The notes beneath the pieces were generated by a model. The model saw nothing but the letters and a program-made list of their open reading frames with translations. It had not been told where the DNA came from and searched no databases. A stretch of 7,037 nt of DNA from an uncultured Actinomycetes bacterium (GTDB taxonomy: Bacteria > Actinomycetota > Actinomycetes > Nanopelagicales > Nanopelagicaceae): positions 1 through 7,037 of the forward strand of contig CAIMUD010000069.1 in NCBI GenBank assembly GCA_903844585.1, given 5' to 3'. Shown here piece by piece: positions 2,219 through 4,089 of the stretch. Each line of letters begins with the position of its first letter. Within the stretch, counting starts at the first letter, position 1. Both the position numbers and the translations under genes were made by a program.

Positions 2219-2926
2219 GTGAAGGCTCCAATTATTCTTGCCATTGATACGTCGGATTTATCAACGGCGAAAGCCTGGGTGAAGGCAACCCACGAGAGTG
2301 TAAGCGTTTATAAATTGGGTCTTGAATTTTTTCTTAATTTCGGGGCGGAGGGTGTGCGAGCTATTCAAGAAGAAGCGGGGGTCGATATTTTTCTTGACCT
2401 AAAGTTGCATGACATTCCACATACAGTCGCTGGTGCCGCTAGGTCAATCGCGTCTTTACAACCGAAATTTCTCACAATCCATGCCTGCGGTGGTGAGGCG
2501 ATGATTAAGGCAGCCGTAGAAGCAGTGCCACTAGTTGATGTAACAGCCGTCACGATACTTACTTCGCTAACAGAAGATGATTTGTTCAAAGTCGGATTTG
2601 CGAATAACGCGCTAGAGAGCGCGGTCGCGTTAGCAAAATTAGCTTTCGATAGCGGTGCCAAGGCAATTGTTTGTTCACCACTTGAAGTTGCGGCTATTCG
2701 TAAGATGGTTGGACCAGTACCTAAACTCATTACGCCAGGTGTTCGTCCGCTCTCTGATGTTGGAAAAGATGATCAAAGCCGCACCATGACGCCGGCTGCT
2801 GCGATTGCAGCGGGGGCTACTTATGTCGTCATCGGTCGTCCAATTACCAGTGAATGGAAAAATGGCGCCTCCGCCCTTAAGGAAAAAGCTGCCATGATTG
2901 CATCCGATCTCTTGGCAGTTAATTAG
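2219..2926 (+). CDS. pyrF: Orotidine 5'-phosphate decarboxylase, type 1
   Basis: This 235-residue TIM-barrel enzyme decarboxylates OMP to UMP, the last step of the pathway. All catalytic residues are in place: Asp10 (AIDTSD), Lys32 (VYKLGLE), and the Asp60/Lys62/Asp65 tetrad in FLDLKLHDIPHTV (58-70). The phosphate-binding part shows TPGVRP (172-177), DDQSRTMTP (184-192) with the Gln and Arg that grip the phosphate, and VVIGRPIT (203-210) with Arg207. Motif spacing and length match the E. coli/B. subtilis group (type 1), not the longer type 2 protein of mycobacteria and streptomycetes. The start is a GTG placed directly after the pyrD TAA, with no intergenic base. Only a weak upstream purine run (GAGCGGA) is present, so initiation probably depends on ribosomes arriving from pyrD. 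Confidence 0.95.
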   Translation: MKAPIILAIDTSDLSTAKAWVKATHESVSVYKLGLEFFLNFGAEGVRAIQEEAGVDIFLDLKLHDIPHTVAGAARSIASLQPKFLTIHACGGEAMIKAAVEAVPLVDVTAVTILTSLTEDDLFKVGFANNALESAVALAKLAFDSGAKAIVCSPLEVAAIRKMVGPVPKLITPGVRPLSDVGKDDQSRTMTPAAAIAAGATYVVIGRPITSEWKNGASALKEKAAMIASDLLAVN

Positions 2927-2940
2927 CGCCGGAGAAATTT

Positions 2941-3822
2941 ATGCCTAAGCCACCAGTTCTAACTCCTGAACAGAGAACTGCTGCGCTATTAAAGGCCAAG
3001 GAATCTAGAACTCGTCGTTCGGCGCTGAAGTTAGATGTGAAGAGCCAAAAAATTTCGGTCTCCGAAGTGCTTGATTTGTCAGCACGTGATGGGGCAATCG
3101 CAAAAATGCGTGTTATCGAATTGATCGAATCAATCCCTGGTGTTGGAAAAGTTCGCGCACAATCGCTTATAACAAAGTTAGGGATATCTTCCTCGCGTAG
3201 AATTGGAGGCCTCGGCCCACATCAGCGCCGCAGTCTAATTAAGGAGTTCACTTTGCCGGTGGATACCTCAACGCACGGTCGACTCGTAGTCCTGTCAGGC
3301 CCTGGAGGCGTTGGCAAAAGTTCAGTCGCTAAGGCGTTACGTCTTCGCGATGAGTTCTGGGTAAGTGTGTCTGCAACCACTAGAGCTCCACGACCTGGTG
3401 AAAAAGACGGCGTTGATTACTTTTTTTACAACGACGAAGAATTCGATAAAGCGATACAGAGCGATGAATTTTTGGAGTGGGCCGCATTTGCGGGAGCGCG
3501 CTATGGAACTCCAAAAGCTCCAGTTATGCAATCACTTGCTCGTGGCAAAAATGTATTGCTTGAGATTGATATCGATGGAGCAAAACAAGTCAAAGTGCAC
3601 CAACCAGATTCGCTTCTTGTCTTTCTAGAACCTCCAACCTGGGAGGAGCTAGTTGCTCGATTAGAAGGTCGTGGGACTGACTCGGAGGAACGTAGAGCCG
3701 CGCGATTGGCTCTAGCTCAGGAAGAACTTGCTCAAGCCTCATTCTTCGACAAGACCTTAGTAAATGAGCAAGTGGATTCAGTTGTTGAGCACCTGATACT
3801 CTTGGCCACATCGCAGCGTTAA
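2941..3822 (+). CDS. gmk: Fused actinobacterial integration host factor (mIHF) domain plus guanylate kinase
   Basis: One open frame of 293 residues carries two complete domains. Residues 1-103 match actinobacterial mIHF. They show a basic helical N-terminus (LTPEQRTAALLKAKESRTRR), then a helix-two-turns-helix/HhH core (SIPGVGKVRAQSLITKLGI, 64-82) and GLGPHQRRSLIKEF (90-103), where family members normally stop. This domain binds duplex DNA nonspecifically and helps shape the nucleoid. Residues about 111-293 are guanylate kinase (GMP + ATP to GDP + ADP). It has the P-loop GPGGVGKSS (120-128), SATTRAPRPGEKDGVDYFF (144-162) for GMP, FLEW and RYGT (177-190), DIDGA (210-214) and the lid RLEGRGTDSEE (240-250). 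The P-loop has Gly where most relatives have Ser (GPSG). The first start is an ATG six bases after GGAG (2931-2934), 14 bp after pyrF. An internal start for kinase alone is possible at 3253 and is listed separately. Domain assignments are confident. That the fusion is the natural product rather than a lost stop by sequence error is inferred from the intact frame. Confidence 0.9.
   Translation: MPKPPVLTPEQRTAALLKAKESRTRRSALKLDVKSQKISVSEVLDLSARDGAIAKMRVIELIESIPGVGKVRAQSLITKLGISSSRRIGGLGPHQRRSLIKEFTLPVDTSTHGRLVVLSGPGGVGKSSVAKALRLRDEFWVSVSATTRAPRPGEKDGVDYFFYNDEEFDKAIQSDEFLEWAAFAGARYGTPKAPVMQSLARGKNVLLEIDIDGAKQVKVHQPDSLLVFLEPPTWEELVARLEGRGTDSEERRAARLALAQEELAQASFFDKTLVNEQVDSVVEHLILLATSQR
3241..3255 (+). 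promoter_or_regulatory. Candidate internal ribosome-binding site and TTG start for free guanylate kinase
   Basis: AAGGAG at 3241-3246 is the strongest Shine-Dalgarno match seen in the window. It is followed after six bases by an in-frame TTG at 3253-3255 and, after twelve bases, by a GTG at 3259. It lies exactly between the mIHF domain (ending Phe103) and the kinase domain. Starting at TTG (codon 105) would give a 189-residue protein, a normal guanylate kinase length. The same bases encode Lys-Glu in the longer frame. Use of this start is inference. Confidence 0.5.
3253..3822 (+). CDS. gmk: Possible separate guanylate kinase from internal in-frame start (alternative product)
   Basis: This is the 189-residue product that would come from the internal TTG, nested in the same frame as the fusion and sharing its stop at 3820-3822. 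It would begin MPVDTSTHGRLVVLSGPG, so only about ten residues precede the first kinase strand, as in ordinary guanylate kinases. It would contain the entire P-loop, GMP-binding region and lid. In other actinobacteria mIHF and gmk are adjacent separate genes, so this start may be the remnant, or the still-active form, of the original gmk initiation site. A GTG two codons later is an equally plausible codon but sits less well spaced from AAGGAG. I list it as an alternative, not as an additional gene. Confidence 0.4.
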   Translation: MPVDTSTHGRLVVLSGPGGVGKSSVAKALRLRDEFWVSVSATTRAPRPGEKDGVDYFFYNDEEFDKAIQSDEFLEWAAFAGARYGTPKAPVMQSLARGKNVLLEIDIDGAKQVKVHQPDSLLVFLEPPTWEELVARLEGRGTDSEERRAARLALAQEELAQASFFDKTLVNEQVDSVVEHLILLATSQR

Positions 3823-3840: not shown

Positions 3841-4089
3841 ATGGACGGTATTACAAACCCACCTATCGATGAACTTTTATATAAGAGCGGTTCTAAGTAC
3901 AGCCTCGTTCTTTATGCGGCAAAGCGCGCTCGTCAGATCAATGCCTATTATTCACAACTTGGTGAAGGTCTTTTGGAATACGTAGGTCCACTAGTTGATA
4001 CGCATGTTCACGAAAAGCCACTCTCAATTGCGCTACGTGAGATTAACGATGGTCTATTGACTATCGAAAACCTTGAACCAACTGCTTAA
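3841..4089 (+). CDS. rpoZ: DNA-directed RNA polymerase omega subunit
   Basis: An 82-residue protein with the actinobacterial omega signature: [11 protein letters not shown] (3-13), [17 protein letters not shown] (18-34), then [13 protein letters not shown] (41-53) and [11 protein letters not shown] (58-68). Omega binds the beta' subunit and aids assembly and stability of RNA polymerase. The conserved [17 protein letters not shown] helix is the part that contacts beta' in this family. A clear ribosome-binding site, AGGAG at 3831-3835, lies five bases before the ATG. The gene follows the kinase by 18 bp and precedes coaBC by 15 bp. The gmk-rpoZ-coaBC order is shared with many bacteria. Length is normal for the family and nothing is missing. 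Confidence 0.96.

Follow-up and report, generated by a model that had tools for sequence, protein, structure and literature searches.

The window, that is, the whole stretch of 7,037 nucleotides analysed here, carries at positions 2941-3822 of the plus strand a single stop-free open frame of 293 codons (ATG to TAA), in which an actinobacterial IHF domain is followed by a guanylate kinase domain. With gene names assigned from Pfam domains, the order of genes is pyrK-like (423-1283), pyrD, pyrF, mihF::gmk, rpoZ, coaBC and metK. The features of the locus are:

202-435: end of an MGS-domain protein (Pfam domain), probably carB
2219-2926, plus strand: pyrF (OMPdecase, 146.8 bits), ending 14 nt upstream of the fusion
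2931-2934, plus strand: GGAG, read by eye, the likely ribosome site of the fused ORF
2941-3822, plus strand: mihF::gmk fusion ORF, 293 residues, by Pfam and NCBIfam domain matches
2941-3249, plus strand: actinobacterial IHF (mIHF/sIHF) H2TH domain, residues 1-103
3241-3246, plus strand: AAGGAG within the frame where the two halves meet, 6 nt upstream of TTG 3253 and 12 nt upstream of GTG 3259, a possible internal start for free Gmk
3250-3276, plus strand: linker, residues 104-112, with residues 106-108 at pLDDT below 50
3277-3798, plus strand: guanylate kinase domain, residues 113-286
3295-3321, plus strand: P-loop SGPGGVGKS, residues 119-127, with G120, P121, G125 and K126 invariant in 72 fused proteins
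3841-4089, plus strand: rpoZ (RNA polymerase omega; RNA_pol_Rpb6, 55.3 bits), 18 nt downstream of the fusion

This gene order is conserved. Among the loci with enough DNA (the window and L001-L080, so that the counts take in the window's matches to itself), pyrF (78/78) and pyrD (71/71) lie upstream of the fusion, and rpoZ (78/78), coaBC (72/72) and metK (66/66) downstream. The 16S tail GGATCACCTCCTTTCT, with its anti-Shine-Dalgarno sequence, is present in all six related genomes searched. In the passages of PMC6155035 on Mycobacterium tuberculosis, mihF has gmk and rpoZ directly downstream, and the polar effects of deleting mihF had to be compensated by supplying gmk-rpoZ. The fusion therefore joins two operon neighbours, and the claim of a sequence-only reading of this stretch that mihF and gmk are adjacent genes in characterised actinobacteria holds for M. 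tuberculosis, according to the same passages (PMC6155035).

The same reading had proposed an in-frame fusion of mIHF and guanylate kinase, and both domains indeed score well over the curated cut-offs. The NCBIfam model actino_IHF (NF041260) matches residues 5-103 with 117.7 bits against a cut-off of 60, covering model positions 3-101/102, while guanyl_kin (TIGR03263) matches residues 113-286 with 208.4 bits against a cut-off of 160.45. Two Pfam domains are likewise above cut-off, H2TH_5 at residues 33-103 and Guanylate_kin at 113-285. In sequence comparison, solved structures of sIHF (4itq) and mIHF (6tob) align to the N-terminal half, and many guanylate kinases, with M. tuberculosis Gmk as the first, to the C-terminal half. 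The reading's extent of a complete mIHF domain (1-103) stands, as does the completeness of the kinase; its kinase start at about residue 111 does not, since the domain really begins at about 113 and residues 104-112 are linker. The predicted structure consists of two confident domains (mean pLDDT 90.4, pTM 0.61) joined by what is probably a short, flexible linker. Across fused proteins the gap between the domain matches is 4-25 residues; in the window's group it measures 4-12 residues for 119 of 120 rows, and in the 10 Microbacteriaceae-type proteins read 14-18. The mIHF domain is a true family member, and the protein as a whole is a variant rather than a standard mIHF because it is fused to Gmk.

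Both halves seem to be under selection. In 253 pairs at 80-99.5% identity, median dN/dS for pairs with finite dS is 0.067 for mIHF (120 pairs), 0.193 for the linker (132) and 0.046 for gmk (184), values that are rough because dS is close to saturation. Across 72 aligned proteins, chosen as fused, the kinase residues G120, P121, G125, K126, S144, T146, T147, R148, R151, R240, R244 and R255 are invariant; these are residues with catalytic roles in guanylate kinases. In the mIHF half of the same proteins R12, R23, R26, K30 and R57 are near-invariant, and G69 and R87 invariant. The kinase motifs that had been read from the sequence, Lys126 included, are thus present, with the core residues conserved in 72/72, and the claim that both halves are under selection agrees with the low, if rough, dN/dS of each. 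GMP kinase activity is expected of the window protein because four complete chromosomes of relatives yielded no gmk besides the fused one, and DNA binding and bending by the mIHF half would follow from homology. It is most improbable that one half is a dead remnant: although the Microbacteriaceae-type mIHF half scores weakly (about 1e-14 to 1e-22) and the mIHF half is absent from at least two small genomes, the dN/dS of both halves, the basic and core residues conserved across the 72 proteins, and the fused gmk being the only one found all speak against it.

The fusion is widespread. Both Pfam domains occur in all of the best 120 of 6755 homologues (the query included; lengths 290-304 residues), so that the two-domain proteins of about 290 residues that the earlier reading had proposed to look for in relatives were found. 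That reading had also allowed for a stop codon between the halves in all close relatives; in fact, of the best 80 of 195 relatives in genome contigs, 80 are fused. Among the named fused relatives are Candidatus Planktophila lacus, of the order Candidatus Nanopelagicales, and three strains with complete chromosomes, IMCC26103, IMCC19121 and IMCC25003. Six genomes, four complete chromosomes among them (P. lacus and these three), each yielded exactly one mIHF and exactly one gmk, within a single ORF. An assembly or base-calling error hiding a stop between two genes in the window was therefore rejected, as the relatives share the fusion, in 80/80 contig loci, in four complete chromosomes and in all of the best 120 homologues; the chance of such an error is practically negligible. 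Six metagenome-assembled genomes titled Bifidobacterium breve or Streptomyces griseus (L028, L065, L066, L075, L078, L079) encode a Planktophila-type fusion, and their titles look mislabelled. No relative was found among viral contigs.

The search of 151 genomes of the P. lacus order found mIHF in 149, fused in 127 and as a separate gene in 22. All 22 split genomes were confirmed by reading the DNA, as were 43 of the fused ones (the 38 of L117-L154, and L004, L027, L048, L052 and L061); the remaining fused ones were called from the lengths of the mIHF frames, with gmk frames of equal length. A single gmk is present in 147 of the 149 genomes that have any, and in the two exceptions (G070, G097) the listed gmk pieces lie at contig ends. 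When 394 genomes of the class were searched, 21 outside the order sample proved to have full-length, stop-free frames, each with one gmk (21/21). The 12 that were fetched (L155-L166) are all fused, among them that of the Microbacterium terrae protein (L162; P0121), of the family Microbacteriaceae. The best 120 relatives listed for the M. terrae protein are all two-domain proteins, the named ones mostly Microbacterium 'guanylate kinase'. In a sample of Microbacteriaceae, 118 of 120 genomes have a match, 110 with a full-length, stop-free frame and 8 without. The fused state is hence the common one in the P. lacus order and in Microbacteriaceae, and is not particular to the window's genome. In the titles, abstract openings and topical passages of the open-licence PMC literature searched, no description of a mIHF-gmk fusion was found; none is named in the passages of PMC6155035 on mIHF that mention gmk, nor in those of PMC4255298, PMC3724605 and PMC10028186.

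How many times did the genes fuse? The mIHF+Gmk tree was built from 118 of 171 rows, with one in three of L001-L080 and without the four near-duplicates L081-L084. Here the window and L001 (80% identity) form a pair in a starred 40-row fused clade that holds P. lacus, from which the window probably belongs to the same order. One origin of all fused rows is rejected (AU p 0.0018). On this evidence the fusion arose at least twice, separately in Microbacteriaceae. A small third fused group (L155 and L157, 2.2-2.3 Mb genomes, P-loop SGPSGVGKSSV) has domain gaps of 18 and 25 residues, and L155 has two relatives that carry the label Candidatus Nanopelagicales. This group may have a separate origin or be part of the Microbacteriaceae one; two or three origins are counted because a single origin of Microbacteriaceae plus L155/L157 is not rejected (p 0.41 in the gene tree; p 0.14 in the rpoB tree). 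For rpoB, 59 genomes were asked and 50 matched, of which the tree takes in the 47 that exceed the cut-off. On it the fused or split state needs four changes, all four forced by the starred branches, with the caution that long branches meet (G273 with G340).

The fusion also appears to have been undone. Twelve split genomes (L105-L116) fall inside a starred 78-row clade of the mIHF+Gmk tree, whose other 66 rows are the fused ones of the window's group, and the 66 rows as one clade are not rejected there (p 0.43). The rpoB tree includes eight of the twelve, those with usable rpoB, and places them inside the fused group; since it rejects its 25 fused rows as one clade (p 0.00088), the split subclade is placed within that group. 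One fused genome (G096) groups with the eight on rpoB, so that the split may be later than its branching, or G096 may have fused anew. For the window's order, one fusion followed by one split is the simplest history, and several fusions a less simple one. The twelve split relatives keep mihF and gmk tightly coupled, which was counted in support of co-expression: the mihF stop and the apparent gmk start overlap in ten, seven times as ATGA and three times as TGATG, and in the other two the stop comes directly before the start.

Loss of mIHF is seen in Microbacteriaceae, where the 8 genomes lacking a full-length frame have no mIHF match above the family cut-off. In G514 an mIHF piece of 49.7 bits adjoins gmk and overlaps it out of frame, perhaps through a frameshift. 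The other seven (G515, G518, G574, G583, G594, G597, G569; 1.1-2.1 Mb) also have no mIHF above the cut-off, and what the mIHF model matches at other places in them, with 15-20 bits, seems to be the H2TH region of ribosomal protein S13; weak matches of the kind occur in Escherichia coli and other controls as well. A diverged mIHF domain could escape the family model, but the DNA of two loci (L240 of G515 and L241 of G518) was read directly: pyrF, gmk and rpoZ are directly consecutive with no mIHF part, gmk starting 4 nt past pyrF or overlapping it. At the G574 locus mIHF was not found. At least two small Microbacteriaceae genomes have thus lost mIHF and retained gmk.

The route to such a protein may be short. 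Fifteen genomes from other parts of the phylum (L223-L237) were picked for one in-frame stop between the halves and so are uninformative on how often the frames agree. In them this single stop lies 12-27 nt ahead of the kinase match, and one lost stop could therefore suffice. In six of them (L224, L226, L230-L233) TAA is followed at once by GTG; these back-to-back genes in one frame are candidates for stop read-through or young fusions. A further candidate fusion elsewhere in the phylum (G892) was rejected, its junction being a run of N. The explanation we hold to be likely is that a lost stop joined two operon neighbours, and that each domain still does its usual work, the two now being made in an enforced 1:1 ratio. 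In an ancestral pyrF-mihF-gmk-rpoZ operon with mihF and gmk close together, the mihF stop codon would have been lost, and one pass of the ribosome would then yield one bifunctional polypeptide. Its N-terminal H2TH domain would bind DNA as mIHF and sIHF do, and its C-terminal domain, tied to it by a short linker, would phosphorylate GMP. The main consequence would be a fixed 1:1 supply of both functions, with no physical tether required. The lost-stop route, the two activities and the primacy of 1:1 supply are what we infer here.

A nucleoid protein should be present in much greater amounts than a nucleotide kinase, and a strict 1:1 product is for that reason awkward, unless one copy number has shifted or free kinase is also made. 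The latter would be the case if the locus gave two products, the full-length fusion and, by initiation within the frame where the halves meet, free Gmk. The window carries AAGGAG (3241-3246) ahead of TTG 3253 and GTG 3259, and after thinning at 80% identity a start codon is present at the junction in 32 of 54 rows. In those 32 the Shine-Dalgarno-like energy is -3.84 against -2.83 in synonymous shuffles (0/200 as low); a repeat shuffle gives z -4.2 (0/100), compared with z -1.0 for the 22 rows lacking a start codon. Elsewhere in the ORF such sites before ATG are avoided (z +3.3), and GAG and AAG are slightly favoured at the mIHF end (p 0.03 and 0.045, the rows not being independent). However, 74 of 120 fused rows have an in-frame start codon in the junction zone and 46 do not, Met is not enriched there (16/741 versus 238/14713, p 0.24), and, by codon, only TTG shows a clear excess (z -2.9), while those of ATG (-1.7) and GTG (-1.6) are weak. 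In a scan of 237 sites (standard deviation of z 1.51) others reach -4.5 and -3.7, which leaves the junction merely among the lowest; with thinning at 70% (28 rows) the excess is equally strong in rows lacking a start codon, and the 12 rows of other fused groups give no signal. Moreover, this energy marks real starts poorly here, because the presumed mIHF starts themselves score weakly (mean -1.52). The junction signal counts as a lead rather than as a finding, and a second product is unlikely.

Alternatively, in line with the tether to DNA that the earlier reading had put forward, the mIHF domain might keep guanylate kinase on the nucleoid, providing GDP/GTP near transcription or replication, or the state of the kinase might tune DNA binding. 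The retention of the fusion across deep divergence, its rise at least twice (by the AU test above) and the close match to the DNA-bound fold of sIHF (6bek) are in favour, and from its long retention in the order and the family, together with the second origin, the physical join itself could be useful. Nevertheless, a nested subclade is split again, two Microbacteriaceae genomes whose DNA was read have gmk and no mIHF, and the linker of 4-25 residues is weakly modelled, the pTM indicating no fixed domain arrangement. Such a tether is quite unlikely; a fusion that is common and arose at least twice, yet was undone, fits co-expression better than an obligatory tether. The combination of both ideas, a one-locus switch in Nanopelagicales between a nucleoid-bound full-length fusion and free Gmk from the junction start, which would set packing and GTP supply together, is very unlikely.

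Under the preferred explanation, co-expression through a lost stop, a simple event between close neighbours probably led to an uncommon protein that has endured. Most of the genomes examined in the P. lacus order, and independently in Microbacteriaceae, tie a chromosome protein to an essential nucleotide kinase in this way, and the database names, where given, say only 'guanylate kinase' for the fused proteins. Since the fusion forces equal synthesis, mIHF should be unusually scarce, Gmk unusually plentiful, or the product further processed. As nature offers fused, re-split and mIHF-less genomes, the effect of the join beyond co-expression can be tested.

Among known systems, mIHF and sIHF (M. 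tuberculosis mIHF, Streptomyces coelicolor SCO1480; 4itq, 6bek, 6tob) share the domain of residues 5-103, with the H2TH fold of DNA-bound sIHF (6bek; rmsd 0.7 over 89 residues). They are stand-alone proteins elsewhere (solved chains of 107 and 109 residues), whereas in the window the domain is the N-terminal half of a larger protein; the curated model and the fold of mIHF/sIHF are found in it, at a length beyond the ~105-110 residues of a stand-alone member. The position upstream of gmk is common to the window and, by the passages cited above, M. tuberculosis. Guanylate kinases (EC 2.7.4.8; TIGR03263; M. tuberculosis Rv1389, 1s4q, 1znw) share the complete domain, which here matches the curated model and has the P-loop and conserved core, at 47% identity to the M. 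tuberculosis enzyme in a structural alignment. The window kinase differs from the bacterial enzyme in the DNA-binding domain in front. The Microbacteriaceae 'guanylate kinase' of ~300 residues (e.g., P0121) likewise has an mIHF domain followed by a kinase domain within a single ORF, and differs in its separate origin, as judged from the trees, and in its longer domain gap. In eukaryotic MAGUK proteins a guanylate kinase fold also lies within a multidomain protein. MAGUK kinase domains serve as protein-binding modules. According to the abstract of PMC4325336, a Ser-to-Pro change makes a guanylate kinase domain such a module. Differently to MAGUK proteins, the window protein keeps the catalytic core residues.
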